From Bolinopsis microptera (taxonomy: Eukaryota > Ctenophora > Tentaculata > Lobata > Bolinopsidae), in assembly GCF_026151205.1 (NCBI RefSeq), contig NC_087081.1:5823246-5887245 (forward strand): DNA of 64,000 bases, read 5' to 3'. The notes below the pieces were generated by a model, which saw only the letters and a program-made list of their open reading frames with translations, did no database searches and was not told where the DNA came from. The number at the start of each line of letters is the position of its first letter. The stretch's first letter is position 1. Positions 2,951-63,614 of this stretch are shown here, piece after piece. The position numbers and the translations under genes are program-made.

Positions 2951-3499
2951 GCATTTTCCCTAGGAAGCGCATGGAAAAGCCCAACCACTAAGAGTAGATA
3001 ATGGATTAAGATTATAGTAATGGTTAGGATTAGGGTTAAGGGTAGAATAAGGGACCCCTGTAATAACCCTAAACCTAACCATTACTCAAAGTTGTTTTCT
3101 ACCCAAATGTCTACCCTCACTCCTCAGTAGGTCAAGCTTCTTGTATACTGTCGACCAATGTGTGTTAATAATTGTGCTATTCGAGTGTCCAGTGGACAGT
3201 GTCTACCGAATTAATTGTATTGGAACCAGTAAGCCTTGAGTCAGACTGGACACACTCTACCACATTTAGAATCAAACAAGTAAAGCAAGAAATAGATGTA
3301 TTAAACAGCCCGAGAGAATACTGGGGCATCTTTAGTCCCACGAATTTCAATGTCGATGAACTGGACAGTATGACACTCATTCTACAGAGTGGTGCCATCC
3401 ACAATTCCACAAGACTGTGTCCTTTGGGACACAATCCTAACAGAGTCCACTGGTCAAGGTTATATCTTTGTAAAAATACTGTGACCAAAAGTTAATTAA

Positions 3500-4320
3500 C
3501 TTACAGACATAGCCTAGTCTTCTTCTCGGAACTAGGAAAACTGAGCAACCAACATAAATAAATGCAGTCAATTGCACAATGTTTACGAGATCAAACACAT
3601 TCATTGCCTTGATCTGCTATACGGCCTTACGTACACTGCAACTCCAGCTTCATAAACACACGATTTGAGTGCAACATCTTCAGTCTTACAATTCTTTGTT
3701 TGAATGATCATGCCTACTCAATGCTTAATATATATATATAATATACTTAATATATTACATTGATATAAGATTTATTTTTGATAGGTACTCAATAAAGTTG
3801 ATGAATTTCCCTCCCTATTAAAATTTTAAACCCATTTAGTGAAAATTGATAAACGAAGATCTAGATATTGATACATATTATAACCAACATTGCTTATATT
3901 CTGCCTTGTAAACAAAGAGCAAATCTTCTTAATGCCTTCTTCCTGTCCTAAAACTAAAACTTCATCCTATTAAAGTAAAGGCCAGTTGTTACCACAAGCT
4001 ATTATACCGTCCCTCTCAAAAACATGCCTCAGCCTCCATCAAAAACAATTTTAGTTTTCAGTCCTTCTAGTTTCCAAAAATCTACCGAGCTAGTGTTCTG
4101 GTGTGCACAAAAGCCCCTAAGCCCGTGCATTCCTTGCCCCGCTAGCTGCCAGTCCTTGACAAACTTCCAATAGCAAAGATCAACTAGTCATTTACAAATT
4201 GAGCACTATACAATTTTAATTGTTTTAAATATTTGACTTTGTAAAATGAGCTAAAACATTGATTTATTAGTTTCATTGATTTATTAGTTTCATTGAATGA
4301 TATTACTAGATTCTTCGTAC
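3500..4320. other. No recognisable gene
   Basis: AT-rich sequence with a short TA-rich run at 3730-3760. No coding frame or clear repeat is seen. Confidence 0.5.
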
Positions 4321-4326
4321 TACCTT

Positions 4327-4385
4327 ACAGTGGCGTAACATTGCTTGTTGGCACCCCTGCTGTAAAAGCGCCCCCCTGTTGAAAA
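4327..4385. mobile_element. Fragment of a hAT-like MITE end
   Basis: It starts CAGTGGCGTAAC and is followed by GC-rich text (GGCACCCCTGCTG, GCGCCCCCCTG) like the complete copy at 4522-4810. No second terminus is seen, so this is probably a partial copy. Confidence 0.5.
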
Positions 4386-4521
4386 ATTAATTATATAAAC
4401 AATAATGTTTTATTTATTCATCTTTTAAACTTTGCACGCGATTCCCTCTGAGCCACCTAGTTTTTTAGGTGGCCCTGAATGATTATTTGCAAGGATGATG
4501 AATAATCACTCTACACTCGAC

Positions 4522-4810
4522 CAGTGGCGTAACGAAGGGCCCTGCTGACCCCGCTGTGCAGGGGGGCGCCGTCTTAGGGGGGCGCCAAATTGTCGTTTGA
4601 ATGTGGGACAATTTCGAAAACTTAACTAAAGTACTAGCAAAACTGTGCGTTTTGCTCTAGATACACACTTTTTTAGAGATTTTACCGGCGTATCCTCTAA
4701 AATCACCTAATTTGTTCAATTTTAGGGAGGGGCACCGAAAGGGGAGGGGGCGCCAACAGGGGGGCGCCTTTTCGGCAGGGGGGGCGCCAACAGGCAACGT
4801 TACGCCACTG
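4522..4810. mobile_element. Non-autonomous hAT-type element (289 bp) with 8-bp TSD
   Basis: Terminal inverted repeats CAGTGGCGTAACG...CGTTACGCCACTG. They are flanked by an 8-bp direct repeat, CACTCGAC, at 4514-4521 and 4811-4818. An 8-bp target duplication with CAGTGGCG-type ends is characteristic of the hAT superfamily. The interior is very GC/G-rich and has no ORF. It sits inside the CCCTAA-containing element and so inserted after it. Confidence 0.85.
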
Positions 4811-5138
4811 CACTCGACTGTCACGTGACTTTTTCAACCCATTCTTTAGCTGGTCCTGAACGACTATTCGAAACCCTAACCCTCTAATCTGATCCCAACC
4901 CTAACCCTAACCCAATCCTTAACAAAAGCATATGCAGAAATCCTAACACTAACGAGAAATTAGACTAACTTCCTTATACAGTTATACGGTCATATCACGT
5001 GATCGAGACAGTTTTTTGCAATTTTCTTGTCAGGGGAGCATTTTAACCCTATGTCATGCCCAGCAAAAGGTGGTTTAATTTAAACAGACGGCTTGAGTTC
5101 GCACGCGACATTAAGCATGAGTTGCAAACTTTTGATTG

Positions 5139-15110: not shown

Positions 15111-15367
15111 CTTAATCAGTTAATCAAATAAGAACCTCGACAATCATTATCAATTATCATTTGCCTATATTGGCTAATCGCTACAAATTAAAGTTTCTTT
15201 TTGCAAAATAGTTGTCTCTCATCTGACTAAGCTTATAGGCCACCTTAGGTGAATTATATATCTTTGATGTCGAGGTTAAAGTGATCATTTCGTAACTATA
15301 AGACAGCTTGGACTCCAGATAATTGTGCCACAAAGGAGCTCAAAGAACGTAAACGCATGGGAAGGGG

Positions 15368-15375
15368 TATAAAAG
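15368..15375 (+). promoter_or_regulatory. TATA box of the 15.5 kb secreted-protein gene
   Basis: TATAAAAG lies 109 bp upstream of the ATG at 15477. Transcription would start near 15395-15405. The leader contains a tandem TCCTGTTGAAGCCCCC at about 15428 and 15451. Confidence 0.6.
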
Positions 15376-15476
15376 TAGAGACCAGCTACAGTAGAGGCAG
15401 TTGCCGAGATCAAGTCCCACTGAGAGTCCTGTTGAAGCCCCCACTGAAAGTCCTGTTGAAGCCCCCGCAACTAACG

Positions 15477-18400
15477 ATGTCCAAAATTTGTAGAAACTGC
15501 CTTCTCCTGATCTGCAGCCTGGTCTTGGTCCTGCAAACCTCCTCCCAGAAGTCTACCTTCAACGATAGCAAGAATAACAAGTGTCCTGACACACCTAAAC
15601 CTGTCAACAAGTTAGTTCCATCACCAATTTAAAGTATTTAGCAACTATGGTCGGGAACAAAACAGTATATCCCCTCAGATCCCACACTAAACAGTACGTA
15701 CCCTCAGATCCCACACTAAACAGTACGTACCCTCAGATCCCACACTAAACAGTACGTCCCCTCAGATCCCACACTAAACAGTACGTACCCTCAGATCCCA
15801 CACTAAACAGTACGTCCCCTCAGATCCCACACTAAACAGTACGTCCTCTCAGATCACACACTAAACAGTACGTCCTCTCAGATCCAACACTAAACAGTAC
15901 GTTCCCTCAGATCCCACACTAAACAGTACGTTCCCTCAGATCCCACACTAAACAGTACGTCCCCTCAGATCCCATACTAAACAGTACGTACCCTCAGATC
16001 CCACACTAAACAGTACGTTCCCTCAGATCCCATACTAAACAGTACGTACCCTCAGATCCCACACTAAACAGTACGTTCCCTCAGATCCCACACTAAACAG
16101 TACGTTCCCTCAGATCCCACACTAAACAGTACATCCCCTCAGATCCAACACTAAACAGTACGTCCCCTCAGATCCCATACTAAACAGTACGTACCCTCAG
16201 ATCCCACACTAAACAGTACGTCCCCTCAGATCCCACACTAAACAGTACGTACCCTCAGATCCCACACTAAACAGTACGTCCCCTCAGATCCCACACTAAA
16301 CAGTACGTACCCTCAGATCCCACACTAAACAGTACGTCCCCTCAGATCCCACACTAAACAGTACGTCCTCTCAGATCACACACTAAACAGTACGTCCTCT
16401 CAGATCCAACACTAAACAGTACGTTCCCTCAGATCCCACACTAAACAGTACGTTCCCTCAGATCCCACACTAAACAGTACGTCCCCTCAGATCCCATACT
16501 AAACAGTACGTACCCTCAGATCCCACACTAAACAGTACGTTCCCTCAGATCCCATACTAAACAGTACGTACCCTCAGATCCCACACTAAACAGTACGTTC
16601 CCTCAGATCCCACACTAAACAGTACGTTCCCTCAGATCCCACACTAAACAGTACGTTCCCTCAGATCCCACACTAAACAGTACGTCCCCTCAGATCCCAT
16701 ACTAAACAGTACGTACCCTCAGATCCCACACTAAACAGTACGTTCCCTCAGATCCCATACTAAACAGTACGTACCCTCAGATCCCACACTAAACAGTACG
16801 TTCCCTCAGATCCCACACTAAACAGTACGTTCCCTCAGATCCCACACTAAACAGTACGTCCCCTCAGATCCCATACTAAACAGTACGTACCCTCAGATCC
16901 CACACTAAACAGTACGTTCCCTCAGATCCCACACTAAACAGTACGTCCTCTCAGATCCCACACTAAACAGTACATCCCCTCAGATCCAACACTAAACAGT
17001 ACGTCCCCTCAGATCCCATACTAAACAGTACGTACCCTCAGATCCCACACTAAACAGTACGTCCCCTCAGATCCCACACTAAACAGTGCGTACCCTCAGA
17101 TCCCACACTAAACAGTACGTCCCCTCAGATCCCACACTAAACAGTACGTCCCCTCAGATCCCACACTAAACAGAACGTCCCCTCAGATCCAACACTAAAC
17201 AGTACATACCCTCAGATTCCACACTAAACAGTACGTACCCTCAGATCCCACACTAAACAGTACGTCCTCTCAGATCCCACACTAAACAGTACGTTCCCTC
17301 AGATCCCACACTAAACAGTACGTCCCCTCAGATCCAACACTAAACAGTACGTCCCCTCAGATCCCATACTAAACAGTACGTACCCTCAGATCCCACACTA
17401 AACAGTACGTCCTCTCAGATCCCACACTAAACAGTACATACCCTCAGATCCCACACTAAACAGTACGTCCTCTCAGATCCCACACTAAACAGTACGTCCT
17501 CTCAGATCCCACACTAAACAGTACGTTCCCTCAGATCCCACACTAAACAGTACGTTCCCTCAGATCCCATACTAAACAGTACGTACCCTCAGATCCCACA
17601 CTAAACAGTACGTTCCCTCAGATCCCACACTAAACAGTACGTTCCCTCAGATCCCACACTAAACAGTACATCCCCTCAGATCCAACACTAAACAGTACGT
17701 CCCCTCAGATCCCATACTAAACAGTACGTACCCTCAGATCCCACACTAAACAGTACGTCCCCTCAGATCCCACACTAAACAGTACGTACCCTCAGATCCC
17801 ACACTAAACAGTACGTCCCCTCAGATCCCACACTAAACAGTACGTACCCTCAGATCCCACACTAAACAGTACGTCACCTCAGATCCCACACTAAACAGTA
17901 CGTCCCCTCAGATCCCACACTAAACAGTACGTACCCTCAGATCCCACACTAAACAGTACGTCCTCTCAGATCCCACACTAAACAGTACGTACCCTCAGAT
18001 CCCACACTAAACAGTACGTCCACTCAGATCCCACACTAAACAGTACGTCCTCTCAGATCCCACACTAAACAGTACGTCCCCTCAGATTCCACACTAAACA
18101 GTACGTACCCTCAGATCCCACACTAAACAGTACGTCCTCTCAGATCCCACACTAAACAGTACGTTCCCTCAGATCCCACACTAAACAGTACGTCCCCTCA
18201 GATCCAACACTAAACAGTACGTCCCCTCAGATCCAATACTAAACAGTACGTACCCTCAGATCCCACACTAAACAGTACGTCCTCTCAGATCCCACACTAA
18301 ACAGTACATACCCTCAGATCCCACACTAAACAGTACGTCCTCTCAGATCCCACACTAAACAGTACGTCCTCTCAGATCCCACACTAAACAGTACGTTCCC

Positions 18401-21400
18401 TCAGATCCCACACTAAACAGTACGTACCCTCAGATCCCACACTAAACAGTACGTCCTCTCAGATCCCACACTAAACAGTACGTTCCCTCAGATCCCACAC
18501 TAAACAGTACGTCCCCTCAGATGCAACACTAAACAGTACGTCCCCTCAGATCCCATACTAAACAGTACGTATCCTCAGATCCCACACTAAACAGTACGTC
18601 CTCTCAGATCCCACACTAAACAGTACGTACCCTCAGATCCCACACTAAACAGTACGTCCTCTCAGATCCCACACTAAACAGTACGTCCTCTCAGATCCCA
18701 CACTAAACAGTACGTCCCCTCAGATCCCACACTAAACAGTACGTACCCTCAGATCCCACACTAAACAGTACGTCCCCTCAGATTCCACACTAAACAGTAC
18801 GTTCCCTCAAATCCCACACTAAACAGTACGTCCTCTCAGATCCCACACTAAAAAGTACGTTCCCTCAGATCCCACACTAAACAGTACGTCCCCTCAGATC
18901 CAACACTAAACAGTACGTCCCCTCAGATCCCATACTAAACAGTACGTACCCTCAGATCCAACACTAAACAGTACGTCCTCTCAGATCCCACACTAAACTG
19001 TACATACCCTCAGATCCCACACTAAACAGTACGTCCTCTCAGATCCCACACTAAACAGTACGTCCTCTCAGATCCCACACTAAACAGTACGTTCACTCAG
19101 ATCCCACACTAAACAGTACGTTCCCTCAGATCCCATACTAAACAGTACGTACCCTCAGATCCCACACTAAACAGTACGTTCCCTCAGATCCCACACTAAA
19201 CAGTACGTTCCCTCAGATCCCACACTAAACAGTACGTCCCCTCAGATCCAACACTAAACAGTACGTCCCCTCAGATCCCATACTAAACAGTACGTACCCT
19301 CAGATCCCACACTAAACAGTACGTCCCCTCAGATCCCACGCTAAACAGTACGTACCCTCAGATCCCACACTAAACAGTACGTCCCCTCAGATCCCACACT
19401 AAACAGTACGTACCCTCAGATTCCACACTAAACAGTACGTACCCTCAGATCCCACACTAAACAGTACGTCCTCTCAGATCCCACACTAAACAGTACGTTC
19501 CCTCAGATCCCACATTAAACAGTACGTCCCCTCAGATCCAACACTAAACAGTACGTCCCCTCAGATCCCACACTAAACAGTACGTACCCTCAGATCCCAC
19601 ACTAAACAGTACGTCCTCTCAGATCCCAGACTAAACAGTACGTCCTCTCAGATCCCACACTAAACAGTACGTCTACCCTCAGATCCCACACTAAACAGTA
19701 CGTCCCCTAAGATCCCACACTAAACAGTACGTGTACCCTCAGATCCCACACTAAACAGTACGTGTACCCTCAGATCCCACACTAAACAGTACGTCCCCTC
19801 AGATCCCACACTAAACAGTACGTCCCCTCAGATCCCACACTAAACAGTACGTACCCTCAGATCCCACACTAAACAGTACATCCCCTCAGATTCCACACTA
19901 AACAGTACGTCCTCTCAGATCCAACACTAAACAGTACGTCCCCTCAGATCCCACACTAAACAGTACGTACCCTCAGATCCCACACTAAACAGTACGTCCC
20001 CTCAGATCCCACACTAAACAGTACGTCCCCTCAGATCCCACACTAAACAGTACGAACCCTCAGACCCCACACTAAACAGTACGTCCCCTTAGATCCCACA
20101 CTAAACAGTACATACCCTCAGATCCCACACTAAACAGTACGTCCTCTCAGATCCCATACTAAACAGTACGTACCCTCAGATCCCACACAAAACAGTACGT
20201 ACCCTATGATCCCATACTGAATAGTACGTCAACTCAGATCCCATACTAAACAGTACGTACCCTCAGATCTCACACTAAACAGTACGTCCCCTCAGATCCC
20301 ACACTAAACAGTACGTACCCTCAGATCCCACACTAAACAGTACGTCCCCTCAGATCCCACACTAAACAGTACGTCCCCTCAGATCCCACACTAATTAGTA
20401 CGTCCCCTCAGATCCCACACTAAACAGTACGTCCCCTCAGATCCCACACTAAACAGTACGTCCCCTCAGATCCCATACTAAACAGTACGTCCTCTCAGAT
20501 CCCACACTAAACAGTACGTACCCTCAGATCGCACACTAAACAGTACGTCCTCTCAGATCCCACACTAAACAGTACGTACCCTCAGATCCCACACTAAACA
20601 GTACGTACCCTCAGATCCCACACTAAACAGTACGTACCCTCAGATCCCACACTAAACAGTACGTCCTCTCAGATCCCACACTAAACAGTACGTCCTCTCA
20701 GATCCCACACTAAACAGTACGTCTACCCTCAGATCCCACACTAAACAGTACGTCCCCTCAGATCCCACACTAAACAGTACGTGTACCCTCAGATCCCACA
20801 CTAAACAGTACGTCCCCTCAGATCCCACACTAAACAGTACGTCCCCTCAGATCCCACACTAAACAGTGCGTACCCTCAGATCCCACACTAAACAGTACAT
20901 CCCCTCAGATTCCACACTAAACAGTACGTCCTCTCAGATCCAACGCTAAACAGTACGTCCCCTCAGATCCCACACTAAACAGTACATACCCTCAGATCCC
21001 ACACTAAACAGTACGTCCCCTCAGATCCCACACTAAACAGTACGTCCCCTCAGATCCCACACTAAACAGTACATCCCCTCAGATCCCACACTAAACAGTA
21101 CGTCCCCTCAGATCCCACACTAAACAGTACGAACCCTCAGATCCCACACTAAACAGTACATCCCCTCAGATCCCACACTAAACAGTACGTCCCCTCAGAT
21201 CCCACACTAAACAGTACGAACCCTCAGACCCCACACTAAACAGTACGTCCCCTTAGATCCCACACTAAACAGTACATACCCTCAGATCCCACACTAAACA
21301 GCACGTCCTCTCAGATCCCATACTAAACAGTACGTACCCTCAGATCCCACACAAAACAGTACGTACCCTATGATACCATACTGAATAGTACGTCAACTCA

Positions 21401-24400
21401 GATCCCATACTAAACAGTACGTACCCTCAGATCCAACACTAAACAGTACGTACCCTCAGATCCCACACTAAACAGTACGTACCCTCAGATCTCACACTAA
21501 ACAGTACGTACCCTCAGATCCCACACTAAACATGGTACGTACCCTCAGATCCCACACTAAACAGTACATACCCTCAGATCCCACACTAAACAGTACGTAC
21601 CCTCAGATCCCTTATTAAACAGTACATACCCTCAGATCCCACACTAAACAGTACGTATAACCCTCAGATCCCACATTAAACAGTACGTACACTCAGATCC
21701 CACACTAAACAATACGTCCTCTCAGATCCCACACTAAACAGTACGTCCTCTCAGATCCCACACTAAACAGTACGTTCCCTCAGATCCCACACTAAACAGT
21801 ACGTTCCCTCAGATCCCACACTAAACAGTACGTCCTCTCAGATCCCACACTAAACAGTACGTTCCCTCAGATCCCACACTAAACAGTACGTCCCCTCAGA
21901 TCCCACACTAAACAGTACATCCCCTCAGATCCCACACTAAACAGTACGTACCCTCAGATCCCACACTAAACAGTACGTACCCTCAGATCCCACACTAAAC
22001 AGTACGTACCCTCAGATCCCATACTAAACAGTACGTCCCCTCAGATCCCACACTAAACAGTACGTCCCCTCAGATCCCACACTAAACAGTACGTCCCCTC
22101 AGATCCCACACTAAACAGTACGTCCCCTCAGATCCCACACTAAACAGTACGTCCCCTCAGATCCCATACTAAACAGTACGTCCTCTCAGATCCCACACTA
22201 AACAGTACGTCCCCTCAGATCCCACACTAAACAGTACGTCCCCTCAGATCTCACACTAAACAGTACGTCCTCTCAGATCCCACACTAAACAGTACGTACC
22301 CTCAGATCTCACACTAAACAGTACGTCCTCTCAGATCCCACACTAAACAGTACGTCCTCTCAGATCCCACACTAAACAGTACGTACCCTCAGATCCCACA
22401 CTAAACAGTACGTACCCTCAGATCCCACACTAAACAGTACGTACCCTCAGATCCCACACTAAACAGTACGTCTACCCTCAGATCCCACACTAAACAGTAC
22501 GTCCTCTCAGATCCCACACTAAACAGTACGTCTACCCTCAGATCCCACACTAAACAGTACGTCCCCTCAGATCCCACACTAAACAGTACGTGTACCCTCA
22601 GATCCCACACTAAACAGTACGTGTACCCTCAGATCCCACACTAAACAGTACGTCCCCTCAGATCCCACACTAAACAGTACGTCCCCTCAGATCCCACACT
22701 AAACAGTACGTACCCTCAGATCCCACACTAAACAGTACATCCCCTCAGATTCCACACTAAACAGTACGTCCTCTCAGATCCAACACTAAACAGTACGTCC
22801 CCTCAGATCCCACACTAAACAGTACGTACCCTCAGATCCCACACTAAACAGTACATCCCCTCAGATTCCACACTAAACAGTACGTCCTCTCAGATCCAAC
22901 ACTAAACAGTACGTCCCCTCAGATCCCACACTAAACAGTACGTGTACCCTCAGATCCCACACTAAACAGTACGTCCCCTCAGATCCCACACTAAACAGTA
23001 CGTCCCCTCAGATCCCACACTAAACAGTACGTCTACCCTCAGATCCCACACTAAACAGTACGTCCCCTCAGATCCCACACTAAACAGTACGTGTACCCTC
23101 AGATCCCACACTAAACAGTACGTGTACCCTCAGATCCCACACTAAACAGTACGTCCCCTCAGATCCCACACTAAACAGTACGTCCCCTCAGATCCCACAC
23201 TAAACAGTACGTACCCTCAGATCCCACACTAAACAGTACATCCCCTCAGATTCCACACTAAACAGTACGTCCTCTCAGATCCAACACTAAACAGTACGTC
23301 CCCTCAGATCCCACACTAAACAGTACGTACCCTCAGATCCCACACTAAACAGTACATCCCCTCAGATTCCACACTAAACAGTACGTCCTCTCAGATCCAA
23401 CACTAAACAGTACGTCCCCTCAGATCCCACACTAAACAGTACGTGTACCCTCAGATCCCACACTAAACAGTACGTCCCCTCAGATCCCACACTAAACAGT
23501 ACGTCCCCTCAGATCCCACACTAAACAGTACGTACCCTCAGATCCCACACTAAACAGTACATCCCCTCAGATTCCACACTAAACAGTACGTCCTCTCAGA
23601 TCCAACACTAAACAGTACGTCCCCTCAGATCCCACACTAAACAGTACGTACCCTCAGATCCCACACAAAACAGTACGTCCCCTCAGATCCCACACTAAAC
23701 AGTACGTCCCCTCAGATCCCACACTAAACAGTACATCCCCTCAGATCCCACACTAAACAGTACGTCCCCTCAGATCCCACACTAAACAGTACGAACCCTC
23801 AGACCCCACACTAAACAGTACGTCCCCTTAGATCCCACACTAAACAGTACATACCCTCAGATCCCACACTAAACAGTACGTACCCTCAGGTCCATCAAGG
23901 CTTGCTGGAACTACACGAAGAAGCTGGAAATGACATTGATTGATAAGACGGACTTTAAAAGGAATCTTTGTTTAGATGCGAACTCTAAATATGATAACCA
24001 TCAACGTGGAGCAGGTTCGTACACAAATATCATTTACACCTGCGCAATTCTAAATTAAAATTATCTGGAAAACATCTGTTCAGGTGTTGTGCAACAACGT
24101 TGACACAGCCTGGATTAGTACAAGTTTTATCGACCATTAACTTGACATAATATATACTTTTAGAGATAATGAGGACATCAAAGATCATATACTGTTTCGG
24201 AATTGTGAAAGGCAATAAGTTCAACAAGGAGGATTTCACATACCCCATCAACGGTATCATGCAGACCAAATCAGAGATCATGGAGAACCCAGACATCTGT
24301 GTGCTGGATGGTGACTACAAGGACCCCTCCTGCAGACAGATTGACTACAGTGACTACAACGTTCTCTACAAGGCCATCATGGAGCAGTCTAGAATGCTCG

Positions 24401-24441
24401 AGGGACTCTTCGTAGGCACTATAAGGCACTCAACAGTCTAA
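15477..24441 (+). CDS. Small secreted protein, three exons, minisatellite-filled intron
   Basis: Exons are 15477-15610, 23890-24014 and 24164-24441 (stop TAA). The phases fit: exon 1 ends phase 2 at GTTAGT, exon 2 starts after CCCTCAG and ends phase 1 at GTTCGT, and exon 3 starts after CTTTTAG. The product is about 178 aa. Residues 1-24 (MSKICRNCLLLICSLVLVLQ at the start) form a clear signal peptide. The mature part has about six cysteines (CPDTPKP, ACWN, LCLD, YCFG, ICVL, SCRQ), enough for three disulphides. I do not recognise the family; a secreted ligand, enzyme inhibitor or matrix protein would all fit. Intron 1 is 8.3 kb, nearly all tandem repeat. The joined frame has no internal stops, which supports the model, but transcripts are needed. 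Confidence 0.7.
15663..23889. repeat. 29-bp minisatellite array, about 283 copies, inside intron 1
   Basis: The unit is 29 bp and carries CAGTACGT, a variable pair (AC, CC, TC or CT), CCTCAGATCC and CACACTAAA. Some units have two extra bases (GTGTACC or GTCTACC). Variants are ordered: the rare AGATCACACAC unit recurs 522 bp apart (15851 and 16373), exactly 18 units. A rare ACCCTATGAT unit recurs at 20201 and 21365. The last unit supplies the acceptor CCCTCAG for exon 2. Short ORFs in the array are artefacts. Confidence 0.97.
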
Positions 24442-25140
24442 AATCAGATTCTTTACCCTATAGAGAGCGTTCACATATTACTATATTATTACGTCAGCAA
24501 GTTTTCGGTCATTTTAACCACTCTCCCCTCCGTCAGCATTAAGCGACCTCTTCTTCCCCCCCCCCCCCCCCCCCCCCCATGCAGTTCAAGGACCAGACCC
24601 CCGACCTCAGCAGCAACCGTCAGCATTCCCAATCCCCTTCCAGTTCCCCTCGTCTGCTGGAGTAATATGTGAACGCTCACTCTATTCTGTAATGGGGGTC
24701 AAAGGACTAACAGTAATTAATGTCAGTTATAATTCTACTGATTTTACCTTTTGCTCAGTAACCACTGACCCGTCTTTGGTACTAGGTTCTACTGACAGCA
24801 CCAGTTGATATTGGTCTCCCATTATTGGAATATAATTTCTAAACTAATTTGGAATGAGTAGAGGTGGTTGAGATGTACAATTCAAAAGTACGTGACTTGA
24901 CAAAATAGCTTCTTTTTTTCTTTTTTTAAAGAGTTTTTAATTCACTATTGCATAATTTAAAATTTAAATTTCGTGTGTTTCATTTTTTCCGTGTTAAAAA
25001 CCTAATACTCTAATAGTAATACCGCACGATCATGAAATCTAAAATTTCATGATCATAAGAATGTAATTTTTCATCACTATTTGAATTTGATCAATTGGTG
25101 ACATTAATGTAGGAACTAGGATGAAGGGTCACTATGGGAC
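24442..25140. other. 3' flank, no further gene; poly-C tract
   Basis: A run of about 20 C lies at about 24557-24579, probably prone to slippage. No coding frame or polyadenylation signal was clear to me. Confidence 0.5.
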
Positions 25141-25613: not shown

Positions 25614-28600
25614 TTACCCAAAGAGATCTTCCTTGTCTAGTCTTTTTGACTGTTCCACAAACTTTATGATGTGGTTGAGTTTACTGTTGATAATTTCCTC
25701 CATTGTGAGTAGAGGTTTACCAAATATCCTCAGTCTGATAGTCATCAGCTGTACACATTCGCAGAGGAAATGTTGTGATGTTTCTGCTTCCCCTGGGCAG
25801 TGTTCGCAGTCTTGTGTCTCAAAGTTGACGTTGTTGGCCCTAGTCTGAAAGTAAGCTAGTGGGCTGTGCCCTGAAAGTAGCCATGTTAGCCATCTGAGGT
25901 GAGTTCCTGTGATATTAATATTCCTGTATTTGTATTTGTTAAGGAATAGTCCAAGAGGGATTTTCCCTTTATCACTGAGGTCGACCTGTCGGTATGCGTT
26001 GAGGTGTAGTTTGAATAGGTACTCATCGATTGCGTTGTTGATGATTCCTTCAGGTAGTGGGAGGAATGGTTCAGGTCCTATGGGGATACTGCTGGATCCC
26101 TCTCTTGCGAGTTCGTCGGCAAGTTCGTTACCGTGTACTCCTTCGTGTCCTGGGACCCACCTAAGTTCTACTCGGTGGGAGGTACCTAATGTATTAAGTT
26201 GGTCTACGATGTCCAGTACTATTCTGGAGCTAATGCTAGTGCTGGTAAGCGCTTTAAGCGAGGCCTGGGAATCTGAGAAAAAGTTAATGGTAGCTGGTAA
26301 CCCTATGTTATCATTGATCCAGATACTTGCCATGTGGATCGCAAAGAGCTCGCATTGGTAGACTGTTGCCAGCGTGCCAAGTTGATAGCTGACTCTGTGG
26401 TACTCTTGTGCTGCTTTGATGACACAGAATCCCGCTCCTGTAATTCCACTTGCTTTCGAGCCGTCTGTAAAGATCTGCCAGATGTAGGGAGGAAGATTAT
26501 CGATGTAGTTGATGGCAGCTTTCCTTTCTTGTATAATTACCTTGAAACGTCTGTCCAGCATGGTAACCTTGGGGATATTGTCCTGAAGTGTGCATCCTGT
26601 GTAAGTTATGTTAGTTATCATTTTCTCGACGTTGTAAGCGTGTGATTTACAGTGTCCTCGCTGGTTGTAATGGTACTGTTTATTCCATGTTCCTTGTAAT
26701 TTAAGTCTCATTGCCGACTTAATTGCTAGAGATTTAAGTTTAAGGCTGATGGGACGGATTCTAGCTAGGATCTCCAGGTTAGGAGTGGGAGTACTTTTCA
26801 GTCCTCTAGTGATCATGAGACCTGCTTGGCGTTGAACTGTTTCCAGTCTGACAGAGATGTAGTGTCTGTCTGTTGAGTGTTGCCAAACTATCGCTGCATA
26901 ACCTAGTGAGGGGAGAATGACTTGGTTATAGATCCATCTCACACCCGCCGGTGAGATGCCCCAGATTTTTCCTACAGCTTGTTTACAAGCGTGAAGTTGT
27001 CCTATGGCCTTATCACATTTTTTAAGTATGTGAGTACCCCAATTAAGTTTCTGGTCGAAAGTAACCCCTAGGTAGACTGTACTATTAACTGTGGGAACTG
27101 TAGTTCCGTCAACTGTTAGCGGGGAGTCTAGATTATTGTCCTGTTTGGTGGTGAATAGGATTGCTGTACTCTTGACTCCACTGAGTTTTAATCCTTTGCT
27201 CGTGCACCAGTTGCTGATGTTCTGTAGCTGTTGCTGGGCTATGTCTCTGATCGTGACTTTACAGATGCCTCGTACGAGGATTACCAAGTCGTCTGCGAAT
27301 GCCTGTATAAAGTTATTGTGGATCCCTAGGCTGCTAAGGAAGGTGTTAAGAGTTAGATTCCATAATAGTGGTGACAATACTCCTCCTTGAGGGCTACCTT
27401 TAGTAGCTTTTTTAGTGATACTGAACTCGCAATACGTGAGAGTAATGTGCCTGTTACTTATCATGAAGTAGATCCATTCTGAAATGGTTGGAGGGATGTT
27501 GGCTTCCAGCAGAGCTCCTTTGATCGCTGTGAAGCTGACTGCGTCAAAAGCCTGTTCAATGTCTAGGAACACTCCTAAAGCGTAGTTCCCTGTTGCCATC
27601 GCATCTTCGATCCTGCGGGTTAACAGGTGGATCGCTGATTCCGTAGATTTACCTTTCCTAAAACCGTGTTGGTTTTTAGTGAGTTTAGCTGGAATTTTAA
27701 GGTCTAACTCAAGGTGCCAGAGTATGAGCCTTTCTAATAATTTTTGGAAACTGGATGTTAGTGAGATTATCCTGAATGCCCTAGGGTTACTGTAGTCCGG
27801 TTTGAGGGGTTTTGGTATAATACAACCTGTGGTATGATGCCAGGATTCTGGAGTAATTCCTAGTGCCAGTGAGTTGTGAAAGATCATACGGACTGGATCT
27901 TTAATGTGGTCCCAAGCTTTGAGTATCATTTCGTTCCTTATATCATCCGGTCCTGCAGCTTTGTTGAGCTGAAGTTCGCGAACTGCCCTGTCAACTCTGT
28001 TTGGAGCTGTGATTTGGATTATGGTTTCTGGATCTCCTCCTTCGTATGGCGTCCGGATTGTCCCTGTACCATCGCTCGGGATGAGTATGTCGCTCAAGAG
28101 TGTTAGTGTTTCCTGAGGCGTGTCAGTTAATGTTCCGTCCGGTTTCCTGAGGCTGTTAAGGTTTCCCTGAGATGGTTTGTTAAAGCTGAGGATTTTATGT
28201 ACCCTAGCTAGGGTTGAAGTACCTTTAAGATTATCGCAAAATTGTTTCCAGTTTGTACGTTTTGCCTTGGTTAAAAGTTTTTTGTATGTCCTGCTGGCAT
28301 CCCTGGAGAGTTCCCAGTTTTGGTTATTCCTGGTCCGGTTAGCTTTACGTCTCAGGGCTCGAGCTGTCTGCTTTGCTGTAGTAAGTTCCGCTGTCCACCA
28401 TGGTACTGTAGATCGAATGTTACCATGAGTAATAGGGCAGGCAGCATTGAAGCTTCTCCGCAAGATGTCAGAGATGAAAAGCTGTCGAGCATTGAGATCC
28501 GACGCTGCAGTGACTGGTGAGAACCAGTACGGATGTCTCTCCAACTCAGATGCTATCAGCTCCTTATATAGCTTCCAGTCGCACTTAGAAGATGAACGTG

Positions 28601-29308
28601 ATGCAAAGCTAACCCGGTCCCCTAGTCCTAGAGTAAAAGTAATGGCCTCGTGATCAGACAGGGATTTACCTTTATCCACTTTCCAATTTCTGATAAGGTT
28701 AAGGCCTAGTTGGTTACAAAGTGTGAGGTCAATAACAGAATGTCCTAATTTTCCTACAAATGTGGGTGTATTACCTGTATTACAGATCGCTAGGTTGTTG
28801 GAGCTGATAGCCTGTAGTAGTGATCTTCCCCTGGTGTTCGTACTGGTCCCCATGCAGTGTGATGGGCGTTGGAGTCCACTGATGCTATCAGCGGGAGTTT
28901 CTCTCTTTCCGCATAACTGGATATCCTTGTGATTAAGTCGCTAGGGATGTCCTTTGTTATATCCATGTATATTGAAGTCAATATAATCGATAAATCCTTG
29001 TTTATGTTACTCCTTAGAGTGATACTGTCACCAGAGCTGAGTCCTGCCAGCACCATAGTCTTTTTTCCTAAGTCCTTCGGTAGCAGGGCTGCTACTCTGG
29101 GTTTATCCTGGGTGAAGGGCACAAACTGCTTGTGACTCTTCGGCACGTTACCTACCACTCCTTTCCTCACGACCGGTTCCTGGATCAAGCAAATTTGATT
29201 AGTTTTTAGTTCCTTGTGCAGCGTGGAAGCTGCTGTAAAACGTTTGCCTAGATTAATTTGAATCACTGATGTTGAGAGATCTAGTTTACGAGGTTTAGTG
29301 GAACTCAT
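25614..29308 (-). pseudogene. LINE ORF2: endonuclease, reverse transcriptase, RNase H (one frameshift)
   Basis: The N-terminal frame (29308-28790, from ATG, MSSTKPRKLDLSTSVIQINL) carries an APE-type endonuclease with SVDSNAHHTAWG. The second frame, from 28853 to the stop at 25614, completes it (DLTLCNQL, SDHEAITF) and then has RT motifs AAGPDDIRNEM, LDIEQAFDAV, GSPQGGVLSPLLW and FADDLVIL. RNase H follows: IFTDGSKASG, CELFAIHMA, FSDSQASL and HGNELADELA, so its acidic residues are present. A CEHCPGEAETSQHFLCEC knuckle lies near the end. The frames break in the G run of GCATGGGGACC at about 28848-28853 by what looks like one missing base. RNase H in ORF2 points to the I/R1/LOA/Tad side of LINEs. 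Apart from the frameshift it looks complete and young. Confidence 0.9.
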
Positions 29309-30727: not shown

Positions 30728-33700
30728 TCACATCTCAGTTTCTACAAACTCGGCCACGCTTACTGCAGTCGTCCCAACAAACTTATTGAATAAGTTACAT
30801 CTTGTGTAAATAAAGTTTGTAAATTTTCTCATAGCTAGCTCGACAGTATCATCATATAACAGTGGATTTATAACAGAATTCATGGGCAAAATTATGATAG
30901 AAAATATTGGATACCACGACGTAGCTCCAAAAACATCAAAAAAGTGAAGCAAGCTGATGAAAATGAACGGAATCCAGCACAAAAAATCAGTTACAATGAT
31001 GACCGAAACTTTTGCGTTTAACCTGGTTTGGGTTCTTCGCTGTTGCACAGTTGTCCGTTCCATAATAACTTTACTGGTCTGGTGCTTCACTTTGAAGTTT
31101 ATGATACAGTAGCAGATAGTTATCAAAAGAAAACACACAAAGTTGAACAGAAGAACAACGAGTGAAAACACTTTCTGAGGATCTGAGGAGGATACTAAGT
31201 ATTTGAACAGACAAACACCGTCATTGCCATAAAACTCCACATTATCACCACTCACCAGCTTGTAGTCTTTTGAAAACATATTCCCTGTCATCTTTTGAAT
31301 AATTCTCCAGCTTAAAAATTGACTTCTGTAACGTCCGTAGTACACCTGTAGTACCTTGTTATGTGTATCTCTATTCACCATGCCCGTAAACAAAGTGACG
31401 GGACCGTAGTACAAGCCATTCACAAAATAATCTTCTAGAGAAGAAAAAAGCGGAACGATGGCTATTGAAATTGAGCTCCCTAATATAAAAGAGGAAATTG
31501 CCAAAATTTTAAGGAACGCTTTAAAAGAAGTTCCGTCTTTGGAGACAAGTGAGCTGATATTATAAACTCTAGAAATACTAAGGGCAGTCATTGAAAACAG
31601 TGATAGTTGAGAGCCAATGGTACTGACTACTCCGAGAGCACCGCAATAGTAACTAGTCAACCACAGGTACCTTTCTGTACAGTACTTAGAGGAGTAAATA
31701 AGATCCGCAACAGCAACTGAAAGAAGATAAACCCCAATCAGGAAGTCTCCAAATGATACCAACATAATCAACGTTTTGTCGATTCTGCCATGGAATGACG
31801 TACTCTTTAAAATTTTCCTTGAAATTCTCACCAAGGAGATTCCGTTGAGAACAACAGCAAGACCTCCCACTATCCAAGCCATTATTTTGATGGAACTGTT
31901 CTGTATCAGCTGCTTTGAACTTGAATCACACATCTCCCCACACTCATCAGATAAATCACTACAGTCATACTTCCCGTCACAGAGAGAGGAGAGGGGTATG
32001 TGATCACCACTCTCAATGCAATAAAAGTGGTTTGAACAGTTCCTCTCGTCACTCCAGTCTCCACAGTCGTTAGCCAAGTCACAAACTTTGGAGTAAGGTA
32101 TGCAAGTCTCTGAAGTGCAAGCGAAGTAATCACTGAAATAAGAACTTGTATCAATCTGTTTCCTCACTATAGTCAACTCATAACTTTTAGTCAAACTGAA
32201 GATTCTCTTCTCTGTGGGAATGTCCACACAACTGGATTGCTTGATCGGTCTCAGAGGGCAAACTGCGTTTTGGCACAATCCCGTGCAACTAAGATACACA
32301 TACCGCTCTCCGTAAGAATAAGAACAATCCACATAATCAGATGGGTGTGTCACCGAAACTGCGGTGACACCAAGAATCCCCTCTGAGGACCCTTCAAAGA
32401 GGGAGGTGGTGCACGGTGCAAGTAAGTGGGACATGGTCTCTAGTCCTAAGACACAGTGAGCGGTATACTTCTCCACCCCATTGTCATGGTTCATAACCTT
32501 GTTCCATGTTCTTTCTGAGCCTTTTGATTTGTCACAGATCTCACCCTCAATCCCACAAGCAGCTTGCTTACTGCAGAGCAGGCTGTATTCAGTGAACCCA
32601 CCCTCAGGGCACAAGAACACCTCCTGACACACTGACTCGTACTCCTGATATCTGGTGGTTACACCGTATCCACACTGAAACCAGAGATCCTCATCTTCGT
32701 CTTTTCCGTCTATACAATCCTTGTGACCATCCATAACCCAGGATAAAGGTATTGTCAATACTCTGGGTGACTGCTCATGACGATTGCTTATACTGGGTGT
32801 TTCTTTGACCCGACGGATACATCGGGTTGTATTTGTCATTCTATTACAGTCACTCTTTCGTTCATCAGCTCCGTTCTTACAGTCCTTTCTTCCGTCACAA
32901 ATCTGATTTCTGTGTACAACACAACCAGTTTCCGCTTCTACACAGAGATTATTGTACCTGTCAGAACAAAGATCAAAACCCATACAGAGTGCAAACTTGG
33001 AGAGTGTGGTGGGATAACCGTTCATCTGACAAGCCATAGCCACGCGAGAATTATCAGTGCAATTAATCTGATCTAACCCATCATTGCAGGTGTAATACTG
33101 GAAAGCACCTCTTGGCACCGCACAAATTTGATTTGGGTATAAATTTCTTATTCTTTTTTTGTTTCCAAGCCGGGAACATTTTCGAATAGCTTGTTTAGGT
33201 TTACATCGACGTTCATCCTTGTTATCGAGACAATGCGCTGTTGTATCGCATATATACCTGGCATGAACATATCCCCCTTTTGCAGTGTTACAAAACATTC
33301 CATAGGTCACATTGTTACATTTAGCTTCATCATCGCACATGTAGCAGTCACACTTTAAATCGCACACTGCAGACATGGGTATGCTGGAGGTAGATTTCCC
33401 TCTACATTTGAACATGTCATCTTCTTTGTCAGGTAAAGTGCACAATGTCTCGTCTAAGTCCGTGTTGGTGCAAGTTTTTTCTGAATCACAATCAGCGGTC
33501 ATTTCGTTTACCAGACCGGTCAGCTTTGAGCCAATATAAATTCCGTCCGTTTTTGAAGCCTTTGCGTATTTGCAAATGTAATCACCACAAAAAACACTTC
33601 CCATTTTGTGCTTTGCCCATGTGCAGCTTAAGCTTAGATGTCGACATACTTGATAAAATTTATCGTCATTTGGACAGATTCTGTCGAAAGCTCGGTTACA

Positions 33701-34069
33701 TTTGTTCCCATTTTTGACTTTAAACTCTCGGTCAGAATACAGGTCGGCTGATCGCGGACATCTGAATTTGTCGCCACATTTCTCTTTTAAGTAAATGTAG
33801 CTTTTGTTTTCAACTTCAACGATCGTACACTCTTCTCCTGAAATTGATTGTGTGAAGTGTGATACTGATACTCATTAATAATGAGAGAGATGTGAAGGGT
33901 GGAACACTTAAAGTGTATATCAACGTACACATGCAGATAAGGGAAATACTTTAAATATCAGTAATGGTAACATTATACCTTCTGAATCTGCTGAAAGGTG
34001 AGGTATGCATCGTGATGCAAGATAAATCACTCCAAGGAAAAGCTTGTGCTTCGTTATCGGTAGCCCCAT
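30728..34069 (-). CDS. LDLa-repeat 7TM receptor, LGR/relaxin-receptor type (about 1066 aa)
   Basis: Exon 1 is 34069-33979 (ATG, 30 codons plus 1 base, donor GTATAA). Exon 2 is 33837-30728 (acceptor TTTCAG, phase 1). Exon 1 encodes a signal peptide (MGLPITKHKLFLGVIYLASR), giving a surface receptor. The ectodomain (about residues 31-670) is Cys-rich with LDLa-like modules, including RNQICDGRKDCKNGADE, SWVMDGHKDCIDGKDED and a canonical pair at about 599-665 (SKVCDLANDCGDWSDERNC, SSLCDGKYDCSDLSDEC). The 7TM domain (about 680-1033) has FGDFLIGVYLL in TM2, YGNDGVCLFKY in loop 2, VTDFLCWIPFIF in TM6 and NSVINPLLYDD in TM7, as in LGR/RXFP receptors. No leucine-rich repeats are seen. A paralogue lies at 60.2 kb. 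A three-codon uORF (ATG AAG GAG TGA) overlaps the start. Confidence 0.88.
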
Positions 34070-37909: not shown

Positions 37910-37951
37910 TTATATAACCGTTTTAAGAGTGTTCAGATTTTTAAAGGAATT

Positions 37952-40900
37952 TTGGGTTTTACTAACTTTTTTTTACTAACGGAGGCTGGGCAAAGCCTAC
38001 GGGACCCCAGTCGCCTGATGAGAAGAGGGGGTACTCGTCATCCGACCAGATTTATTAGTCAACAGATCATCCATGTTGACCCTGCTTCCAACAAATCCAA
38101 TCCAGTAAATTATTGCAAACAGTTTTTACGTTTTGGAACATGGAACGTTCTATCTCTTGTCAGCTCATCTACACAGCTCTACCAACTTAGTCAAAACATT
38201 GATCAGTACAGATTGGATCTTTTGGGGATCACCGAGACTCACATGCCTGGATCTGGCACCACTCTACTGGACAATGGCAGTCTACTCATCCATTCCGGTA
38301 GAGTCGACGGGATCAAGAGACAGGGAGTCGGTCTCAGTCTTTCAAAACGAATCAGAAACTCCCTGATATCGTTCACTCCCACATCGGAGCGGGTTTTAAC
38401 TGCTAGGCTGCATAGTAAGCAAATCAACATCTCTGTTGTTGTGGCCTATGCTCCAACTGAGGGTGCAGAGGAGAGTGAGAAAGATAAGTTTTATAGGACA
38501 CTCACAGATACATTTGATGGGCTACCTCGTCACGATATCAAGTTACTGCTCGGCGATTTTAATGCAAAAGTAACATCAGGCAGATATGGAAGTGAAGCGG
38601 TCATCGGTGGGGAATCACTCCATAGCTCATCAAATGACAACGGGACAAGACTTGTGGATTTCTGTGCGACGAACCAGCTTGTCATCGGGGGAACTCTCTT
38701 CGAGCACAAGAAAATTCACAAGGGAACATGGCGGTCCCCCAACGGGCTCACCGTCAATCAGATAGATCATATCTGCATTGGAAAGCGGTTTCGTCAGTCA
38801 ATTTTTGATGTTAGGGTATGTCGCGGGGCAGACATCGGCTCCGATCATTATCTGGTTCTAGGACTGCTGAAAATCAAACTTCAGTCAGCGACAAAGATCA
38901 ACGCCAACAGGCCCAATGTGCCTGCCATTGAGCGCCTGAGGGATAGTACTACGGTTACAGAGTACAATGTGGCTCTTCAAACCCGATTTGCAAGTCTGGA
39001 TAGTGAGGTCAACCTCGAGGATATGTGGCGAAATCTCAGTCAGACCGTCACTGATGTCTCACTGGAGGTACTAGGCAAGAGACCCCGGAAGGCAAAGGAG
39101 CAACACCTGTCACGGAAGACCAAGGATTTATTGATTCAGCGGGCACAGTTTAAGCGCAAAGACCCAAACTCGGACGCTAACAGGTCAGAGTATTCTAAAC
39201 TTAATAAGTTAGTCAAGAAAAGCAGCAAGCTAGACGACAATAACTGGGCAGTTAGAGTAGCTACTGATCTTGAGGAAGCAGCGAGCAAAGGTCAGCAGCG
39301 TGAGGTATGGGCAAAGATCAAGAAGATCTCTGGTAAGAACAAGAAGCCTCAAGCATCTTGTGTCCGGGACAAGGACGGTAGGAAGATCACGGATCCCCAA
39401 CAGCAGAGGGATAGGTGGAAGGAGCACTATACTGAACTTCTGAACCCTCCATTATCAAGTGTCGACCTTGCCGACCTTGATACAGTACCACCCCAACCCC
39501 ACTTTAACTCTCTCTCTTGTTCGGATGGACCACCCACCAGAGACGAGATTAGTTACTCCCTGACAAAGCTTAAGAACAACAAAAGCCCAGGAGTGGACGG
39601 GATAACTAACGAGCAACTGAAGTATGGTGCGAGTGCTCTAGTTGATCAACTAGAGTGTCTATTCAAGAAAGTCTGGGAAGAAGAGACTGTTCCTGAAGAT
39701 TGGTTAAAGGGTGTGATCATTGTTATTGGGAAGAAAGGAGACACTTCAGTCTGCGGGAACAACAGAGGGATCACTTTAAAGTCTACAGCATCTAAGCTTT
39801 TTCAGATGATTCTTCTTAAGCGGTTACATGCTGGTATGGAGTGTCTTCTCAGGGAGAATCAGTGCGGATTTAGACAGAACCGCTCATGTATTGATCAGAT
39901 TTATTCTCTCCGAACTATTATTCATAACTGTCTTGAGTTTAACATTCCTCTTTACATTAATTTTGTCGATTTCAAGGCAGCGTTCGATTCTATCAGAAGG
40001 GACTTTATTTGGTGCAGTATGAGACACTATGGGCTGCCTGAAAAATATGTCAGAATATTTCAGTCATTTTTTGGGGGTACCATGAGTGCCGTGAGGGTTA
40101 ATGGGGAGCTGACAGACTGGTTTGATGTCAACTCAGGCACAGGTCAGGGCGACATTCAAGCACCTCCTGTCTTTAATTTCTGCCTAAACTTTTCTGCATT
40201 TCTGGCTGAGACCAACAAGATCATCAGTCAAGGCGCAGTGCTGCAGAAAGAGACGAAGACGGTCGAGGAAAAGGTCATTTTGGACACCGATTATGGACAA
40301 CTCAGGGGAAGGCCTACAGGAGTCAACTGATCTATTAGTTCATTACAGCTCCTACGCTGGGCTCAGAATAAATGCAAAGAAGACCCAATGATATGCATGG
40401 CTGTAAGCAAGTGCGCCTCCCAGCGACCTTTCATCAAGGATGATTGTATTGAGCTGTCGGTTGAGGGTGAACCCGTCGAGCAGGTTAGCAACTTTGTCTA
40501 CCTGGGTGCAACTATCAGTGGGGATGGGACAATCAACAGAGACCTGGATGTCCGTATCCAGAAGGCTAATGGCGCCTTTCATCAGCTCTGGAACATTTGG
40601 AATAGCAGAACTATAAAGACTCCAACCAAGATCAGGATCTATAGGGCTGCTGTCCTCACCATCTTGTTGTATGGAGCTGAAGTCTGGAACACCACCAAAA
40701 AGCAGATGAAACGCTTCGAGGTTTTCCATCAAACCTCCTTGAGAAGGATCCTTAGGATTAAATGGTTCTTTCATGTGACCAACGAAGAAGTTCTTAGGAG
40801 GGCTGGCATCAAGTCAGTCGAGACTTTCATCAGTGCTGCCAGGTTACGTTGGTATGGACATGTAGTTAGAATGCCAGACTCTAGACTACCAAGGTTTCTG

Positions 40901-41144
40901 TTGAACTGGAAGCCAAATTATGGAAAGAGGTCAAGGGGCAGACCCCGTAAGAACTGGAAGTCCTGCGTACTCGAAGATGCTGCTAAGTTTACAGGTGTTG
41001 AAAACATCGACAACAACACGACAGAAGCTTTGGCTACCAACCGAGTACAGTGGAGACATATGTTACGCCGCCAACGCGATGTGTGTGATGCAGGCCACTC
41101 CAACGACTGGGAGGAGACCTTACCATGTAACATGTAACATGTAA
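37952..41144 (+). mobile_element. RTE-like LINE, nearly full-length but inactivated
   Basis: The frame from 37952 to 40330 gives an APE endonuclease (FGTWNVLSL, LGITETHMPG, VVAYAPTEGA, LLLGDFNAKV, GSDHYLVLGLL) and RT motifs (NNKSPGVDGITNEQLKYG, NQCGFRQNRSCIDQI, FVDFKAAFDSI, GTGQGDIQAPPVFNF). It then stops. After a short frame shift the C-terminal part continues at 40388-41137 (NFVYLGATISGDG, LYGAEVW, RLRWYGHVVRM, RGRPRKNW). The YxDD catalytic box that should follow DTDY at about 40288 is deleted. The 3' end has ATGTAAC repeated (41125-41144), as in RTE/CR1 LINEs. It starts within about 45 bp of the Penelope end. Confidence 0.88.
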
Positions 41145-59985: not shown

Positions 59986-60168
59986 GTTTTGTTAAGTTTT
60001 GAGCCTTGTATCTTTGAATAAGCAAAATCGCACATTAAAGCAATATCAAACAAACAACTTTGGTTCCCTAGTAAAAGTCTAAAGAATTTATTGTCTAAAA
60101 CATTTGCCTTTACAATTTAAACGCGACCTTTACGTGGAATTTCCCAACACTAGCATTAAACATTTCAG

Positions 60169-63100: not shown

Positions 63101-63614
63101 ATTTTTATACTCAATGTTCTCCATTGGTATTTTACCTATAAACTCAATGATTAACCCTCTCCTTTATGATGATACCTTCGCCAAAAACCTTACACTCCAA
63201 ACCTTTAAATTGTTTTTTGTTTCTGGAACATCAATAGTGGTGAACCTCCGGAGGCGTGGGAGAGACAATCTTGTGCACTTCGGAAGAGATGTAATTGAAA
63301 TGAAAAACATTGGCCCCGCAAATGATCCTGCACCAACTGATTTAGTAATAACAGCAGAGCATGCAGCGGAAGAAATAGTTGGAATGAGAAACATTGGCCC
63401 CGCAAATGATCCTGCACCAACTGATTTAGTAAAAACGGCAAAGTATGCAGCGGAAGAAATAATTGAAATGAGAAACATTGGCCACGCAAATGATCCTGCA
63501 CCAGCTGATTTAGTAAAAACGGCAGAGTATGCAGCGGAAGAAATAGTTGAAATGAAAATCATTGGCCCCACAAATGATCCTGCACCAACTGCAGAGATAA
63601 CGGATTCTACATAA
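60169..63614 (+). CDS. LDLa-repeat 7TM receptor paralogue with repeated C-terminal tail
   Basis: One large exon begins after the acceptor CATTTCAG (phase 1, as in the paralogue at 30.7 kb) and runs to TAA at 63612-63614, about 1147 codons. The first codon of the open frame is a GTG spanning the acceptor, so the start and signal peptide must be on an upstream exon that I did not find. The ectodomain has LDLa-like modules, including KHSLCDFMEDCTDKSDE, WLKDGEIDCTDGKDEKK and a canonical pair at about residues 570-637 (KQVCDLVDDCGDDSDEIMC, TSKCDGTINCSNLSDEC). The 7TM domain (about 648-1000) has SFADFLVGVYLL, FYGNDGVCLFKY, CTDFFCWVPFIV and NSMINPLLYDD. The tail carries four 28-residue repeats. It is a probable LGR/RXFP-type receptor with unknown ligand. 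Confidence 0.85.
63298..63605 (+). repeat. 84-bp coding tandem repeat, four copies
   Basis: ATTGGCC recurs at 63309, 63393, 63477 and 63561, exactly 84 bp apart. It encodes 28-residue units with NIGPANDPAPTDLV and EYAAEEIVEM. The last copy is shortened. The paralogue at 30.7 kb lacks it, so expansion followed receptor duplication. Confidence 0.95.

Follow-up and report, generated by a model that had tools for sequence, protein, structure and literature searches.

A 29-bp minisatellite of acceptor-like units in intron 1 of a putative secreted-protein gene of the ctenophore Bolinopsis microptera

How is one splice acceptor chosen when hundreds of nearly identical acceptors precede it in the same intron? 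The question is raised by a gene in a 64,000-nt stretch of the genome of the ctenophore Bolinopsis microptera (hereafter the window, which is C10:5823246-5887245 of the searched genome of 264.65 Mb in 232 contigs; plain positions are window positions). Intron 1 of this gene is 8,279 nt long, and a unit-by-unit split resolves 15650-23889 into 283 head-to-tail units of a minisatellite, the last of which ends at the acceptor of exon 2. We consider it probable that the 3' end of this intron was amplified in tandem before the gene separated from its sister on C5, that exon definition picks the acceptor proximal to exon 2, and that the decoy acceptors upstream are mostly passive.

An intron of acceptor-like units and its counterpart in a sister gene

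Tandem Repeats Finder (TRF) reports a single array at 15660-23893 (period 29, 282.8 copies, 93% matches) that ends 4 nt into exon 2. Together with the unit split, this bears out the initial annotation, in which the intron at 15611-23889 was described as mostly minisatellite. The features of the gene and of its first intron, all on the forward strand, are:

15368-15375 (+): TATA box (TATAAAAG) of the host gene, read in the sequence; a TATA stretch aligns in the C5 paralogue and in several C12 paralogues.
15477-15610 (+): exon 1, coding part, with Met at 15477 and 44 codons plus 2 nt; from translation, with the join set by paralogues.
15611-23889 (+): intron 1, phase 2, donor CAA/GTTAGT and acceptor CCCTCAG/GTCC; from paralogue alignment, with an intron at the same position in the C5 paralogue.
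15611-15649 (+): unique head of intron 1, alignable in part with the C5 intron; from alignment.
15650-15678 (+): first, degenerate unit, with 8 mismatches to the consensus and alignable with the first C5 unit; from alignment and unit comparison.
15679-23860 (+): body of the minisatellite, 281 units with the consensus ATCCCACACTAAACAGTACGTCCCCTCAG; almost every unit has a CTAAAC that resembles a branch point and ends in AG; from TRF and the unit split.
23861-23889 (+): last unit, source of the presumed branch point and of the real acceptor; from the unit split.
23890-24014 (+): exon 2, 125 nt; from paralogue alignment.
24015-24163 (+): intron 2, 149 nt, without an array; from paralogue alignment.
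24164-24441 (+): exon 3, coding part up to the TAA stop; from translation and paralogue alignment.

The units are spaced by 29 bp (266 times), 31 bp (15 times) or 32 bp (once) and comprise 53 distinct sequences. CTAAAC is present in 272 of the 283 units, a terminal AG in 280 and both in 271, and the second A of CTAAAC stands 17 nt before the final G. The exact sequence of the last unit recurs in 37 units, itself counted, so that 36 identical decoys lie upstream of the junction at 23889/23890, which is where the end of the last unit had been annotated as the acceptor of exon 2. The longest exact repeat inside the array measures 527 bp, and we read it as a recent block duplication. At the opposite edge, no other 29-bp unit of the 267 departs as far from the consensus as the first one (8 mismatches; the next have 6, 5 and 5), a pattern that is often met at the edges of arrays.

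We infer the exon joins from homology to the paralogues of the gene. Both junctions align without gaps with 10 of 10 intronless paralogues, which upholds the earlier view that the three exons belong together, and intron 1 has GT...AG ends and restores the reading frame when removed, as a spliceosomal intron should. The spliced protein has 178 residues and a start that, by eye, resembles a signal peptide. It matched no Pfam family above the cut-off (sole hit zf-HIT, at 11.7 bits where 24.7 are required). The host is, as predicted from its sequence, a small secreted-protein gene from a mostly intronless family.

The repeat appears to be confined to this locus and one relative. A 21-base piece of the unit, searched against the genome with up to 3 mismatches, gave 280 forward and 2 reverse matches (0 and 1 for a reversed-pattern control), and all matches among those listed (about 100) fall within the window array. 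With a 296-base query from the array, the one other place among the best candidates was the same intron of the C5 paralogue. Both searches can miss weak matches. A dispersed repeat or transposon family was rejected as the source, as the array was found at one locus and in the paralogous intron only, among the matches listed. In ten arbitrary 10-kb stretches of the genome (one with 2,797 N), TRF found no array with a unit of at least 10 bp that extends beyond 2.6 kb, and the 2.6-kb array in these stretches is, by eye, TCC-rich low complexity that does not lie at an acceptor. The final 290 nt of the window array fold no better than shuffled sequences (z 0.18), and Rfam gave no match at the gathering score in 15300-24600.

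The C5 paralogue is the one intron-bearing relative of the window gene, with its two introns at the same sites. In its intron 1 (3070-4966 in the coordinates of locus L003), TRF reports an array at 4375-4969 with a period of 29 bp and 20.5 copies, again ending at the acceptor. The consensus units of the two loci are identical at 23 of 29 letters and differ at positions 4, 9, 11, 20, 21 and 25; CTAAAC of the window corresponds to TTTAAC in C5, which keeps the T-N-A core of a branch point, and CAG is kept as well. Because the left edges of the two arrays can be aligned, first unit included, an array was probably present before the C10/C5 gene split, and each array would so have been homogenised after it. 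The contrast of 283 with about 21 units in two paralogues shows array turnover. The coding sequences of the two genes have a dS of 0.72 and a dN of 0.132 (dN/dS 0.183). This low ratio suggests that selection has acted on the spliced product through most of the period since the split, and thus that intron 1 is removed well enough.

The C5 intron also holds an insert of about 1.1 kb (L003 3271-4372) with inverted ends, seen by eye, and an 8-base duplication, ATCACCCC, flanking it on both sides. We take these inverted ends and the duplication to resemble those of hAT-like elements. Apparently, two older units stand upstream, separated from the C5 array by this insert.

Acceptor choice among decoys

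The number of decoy acceptors upstream of the real one is 278 by the motif CTCAG or CTTAG, or 279 when any terminal AG is counted. Decoy acceptors do precede the real site as first described, 36 of them in units of equal sequence, in a total somewhat below the 283 given then. The last unit and the 36 identical decoys are indistinguishable by their own letters. The base that follows AG does differ: at the real site it is G, whereas for all but one of the 267 units of 29 bp (266) it is the A with which the following unit opens. The main difference of the real acceptor is its position: it abuts exon 2 and is the nearest to the exon 2 donor, 125 nt away. For large introns, splice sites that lie closest to each other across the exon are described as preferred (PMC9225289). 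In an intron of 8 kb, exon definition would accordingly select the acceptor nearest to the exon 2 donor, and the decoys would stay mostly passive. The AG that stands four bases past the branch-like A probably lies too near the branch point to serve as an acceptor.

Splicing to a decoy would be unproductive. For all 278 decoys tested, the reading frame would meet a premature stop that lies 71 nt or more ahead of the last junction. In the C5 gene, an early stop likewise follows from 27 of 27 upstream [AC]TCAG sites, of which a few lie outside its array. A stop more than about 50 nt before the last junction marks a message for nonsense-mediated decay (the 50-nt rule); by this rule, the decoy-spliced messages are predicted targets, and transcripts that use a decoy would carry the stop and be destroyed.

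A competing view is that a sizeable share of transcripts is joined to upstream units, so that splicing noise is costly and array length lowers output through nonsense-mediated decay. The 36 letter-identical upstream units and the unproductive outcome of every one of the 278 decoys are what this view would expect, and the variable-number tandem repeat (VNTR) of human ABCA7 offers a precedent: a donor derived from its unit causes a single unit to be retained, with a premature stop as the result, and greater array length is associated with reduced expression and increased skipping of exon 19 (PMC5954066). However, single-unit retention in ABCA7 was independent of array length in the same source, the dN/dS between the C10 and C5 genes is low, and the rare variants of the window array give no strong sign that decoys are purged or kept. 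Overall, we regard costly noise as rather unlikely, and mostly passive decoys as the better account. Effects of array length on output, which the initial annotation had raised, are possible.

Selection on the decoy motifs themselves was considered and rejected. The 9 columns that make up CTAAAC and CAG show 10 rare variant types and the other 20 columns show 15, which is no depletion in the branch and AG columns; decoys look neither kept nor clearly purged.

A related idea is that the array serves as a heritable rheostat, in which each unit adds a competing unproductive acceptor and copy number sets the level of functional mRNA. If this were true, the sister genes with 283 and about 21 units would be two settings of one dial, but we think it improbable.

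Still less likely, in our assessment, is stepwise or nested removal, by which donors within the array (CA/GTACGT) would be joined to acceptors within it, so that the intron is already shorter when the last splicing step takes place. GTACGT, put forward earlier as a donor, is indeed present in 249 of the 283 units, and internal events of this kind would leave the final mRNA unaltered. However, the motif is not conserved: it occurs 0 times in the C5 intron, where GTACAC (11 times) or GTACAT (7 times) replaces it. Recursive splicing through ratchet sites, also proposed at first, finds no site at all, since AGGT is absent from the 8,279 nt of the intron and zero-length ratchet exons are therefore missing; the sole TCAGGT is the real junction. 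Finally, that the array yields small in-frame exons, such as the 15 nt from acceptor to donor within one unit that would add SHTKQ, is barely credible: among the acceptor-donor pairs counted, which lie up to 102 nt apart, the frame stays open in all 242 with a distance of 15 nt, in 10 of the 23 with 75 nt and in 1 of the 205 with 102 nt, but the C5 counterpart of the 15 nt runs into TAA in the exon 1 frame, GTACGT is absent from that intron, and 0 of 10 intronless copies have an insert at this point.

Origin of the introns and growth of the array

The family was assembled from 18 genome matches, with several matches falling on different exons of the same gene, and comprises 12 members including the window gene; a weak match at C3:21068401 (E 0.21) was left out. 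Ten of the 12 members (nine full-length and one disrupted C12 copy) are intronless at both sites. Five intronless copies, one of them disrupted, lie within about 37 kb on C12 (9120000-9159500, loci L012-L014). In a protein tree for which three distant copies served as the root, and from which C8 and C2 were left out for their long branches, the C12 copies group at 93/96. With all 12 rows, the C10/C5 pair is recovered at 81/77, and C8 falls among the near copies on a branch of 2.7 that is flagged as unsure. When the seven near copies are compared as DNA, with the tree rooted at its midpoint, C10/C5 separate from the C12 genes with full support.

Since one change on the rooted tree explains the pattern where at least two losses would otherwise be needed, a single gain of both introns is favoured. 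The two introns were thus probably gained once, in the C10/C5 lineage, which would make intron 1 young.

The introns could instead be old and have been lost from the ten other copies by recombination with cDNA, which we find rather unlikely. Each of the ten copies misses both introns together, as such loss would predict. However, two or more losses would have to be placed on the rooted tree, and when the sequence ahead of the TATA box is compared with that of one of the C12 copies (C12_9157k), C10 and C5 score 40 and 30, where the best of 500 shuffles reached 25. Because this upstream similarity exceeds that in 500 single-base shuffles, C12_9157k is unlikely to be a simple retrocopy. For another copy, C12_9121k, the similarity to C10 and C5 lies within the shuffles (23 and 24 against 27 and 28). 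A simple retrocopy is possible for the copies other than C12_9157k, as is in-place recombination with cDNA.

Under the favoured scheme of a single gain, a block some 29 bp long, with its end at the acceptor or slightly beyond, would have been duplicated in tandem in the ancestor of the C10 and C5 genes. The block would have comprised the branch point, a short pyrimidine stretch, CAG and perhaps 4-8 nt from the start of exon 2. Unequal exchange could then have grown the array to 283 units in C10 and about 21 in C5 while keeping each homogeneous, and growth would be tolerated because the last unit remains the acceptor at any copy number. The origin from the intron end is suggestive. So is an exon-derived start of the unit: the start of the C10 unit shares 6 of 8 letters with the start of the C5 exon, and 0 of 116 other offsets do as well.

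Several observations weigh against the account as a whole. The branch points are motif matches only, and the exon joins come from homology. The last unit is unremarkable (1 mismatch), although units at a boundary should escape homogenisation. Within each locus, the unit start matches the exon start at 5 of 8 letters, and 1 and 3 of 116 other offsets are as good. The intron-bearing C10 and C5 proteins group weakly (59/43) in the rooted protein tree, and intron gain is preferred to loss by just 1 change against at least 2. Unique residues number 20 in C10 and 5 in C5 with one outgroup, and 13 and 9 with another; some decay of C10 is possible, as is a higher rate of evolution in the gene that carries the long array.

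Elsewhere in the window, long open frames at 25614-28940 (-) and 37910-41137 (+) resemble, by eye, reverse transcriptases of the long interspersed nuclear element (LINE) type. Long single open frames at 30728-33871 (-) and 60099-63614 (+) resemble, again by eye, G protein-coupled receptors (GPCRs) with repeats of the low-density lipoprotein (LDL) receptor type, and an 84-bp tandem repeat occupies 63295-63591, at the end of the second of these. In the same genome, 22 of 32 matches to the glutamate receptor ligand-binding family (loci L021-L024 and others) lie in single open frames of 431-989 codons, so this family also has few introns. Among PDB entries, a 123-residue glutamate-receptor piece from this genome matches ML032222a of the ctenophore Mnemiopsis best (3.9e-34), followed by 4zdm, from another ctenophore (3.4e-24), and by NMDA receptors (from 1.5e-16). 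With a longer query of 765 residues, the 60 hits listed are receptors named kainate, Glutamate receptor 2, delta or simply glutamate receptor and do not include ML032222a, as entries that cover the whole length score higher.

Relation to known arrays

Acceptor choice among equal sites is usually studied with few competing sites. The window intron offers a natural test with 283 near-identical sites, 37 of them identical, against about 21 in the sister gene, and the readout is clean because every wrong choice tested, 278 in all, would disrupt the protein. The locus also bears on intron gain, because the host introns are missing from ten paralogues in the same genome. A literature search of partial coverage turned up no array of this sort in any ctenophore; of the papers it listed on minisatellites and splice acceptors, only one on amphioxus deals, by title, with the subject. 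The loop motif of ctenophore tethering proteins is described as GC-rich (PMC12221973).

A close likeness is to the 'mirage' minisatellites of amphioxus, described for Adh3 and the globins BflGb6 and BflGb9 as tandem repeats of exon-intron boundaries that have splice signals in many units, apparently leave splicing regular and whose boundary units escape homogenisation (PMC3087553). The BflGb6 repeat consists of the 3' end of an intron and the 5' part of exon 2; its haplotypes have 6 and 3 units of 150-160 bp, BflGb9 has a 157-bp duplicate, and units of 10-72 bp are cited there for Adh3 (PMC3087553). Similarly, the window array repeats at an exon-intron boundary and copies a splice signal, with 280 of 283 units ending in AG and the last at the acceptor. 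The boundary-spanning trait of mirages may have a counterpart in the 4 nt by which the TRF array enters exon 2 and in the matches of 5 of 8 letters within each locus and 6 of 8 across loci. Length instability, somatic change included, is a further trait of mirages; here, the difference in unit number between the two paralogues shows turnover. Unlike the mirages, the window array has 283 units of only 29 bp, little or no exon sequence, a branch-like motif in nearly all units and a presence in two paralogues.

In human ABCA7, the VNTR of intron 18 has a 25-bp unit and up to about 427 copies (10.7 kb), and its edge is the real donor (PMC5954066). There, as here, one edge of the array supplies a real splice site; retention of a single unit gives a premature stop in ABCA7, as use of a decoy would in the window gene. 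The ABCA7 array lies on the donor side, is polymorphic in people and has a measured effect, whereas the window array lies on the acceptor side and is seen in one assembly. The minisatellite of human IFI6 (6-16) is reported to carry several splice sites in its units (Turri et al., 1995, as cited in PMC4526556). Those are donors, used alternatively to give isoforms, whereas use of the window acceptors would be unproductive. Introns are also reported to arise from tandem arrays or internal duplication, reportedly in the work of Rogers in 1989 and of Zhuo et al. in 2007. The window array shares with these proposals a tandem duplication beside splice signals in a probably young intron, but it is apparently a later growth at one intron edge and not a demonstrated source of the intron. 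With so small a unit and so many copies, the window array is an acceptor-side counterpart of known arrays and would extend the 'mirage' phenomenon from amphioxus to a comb jelly.

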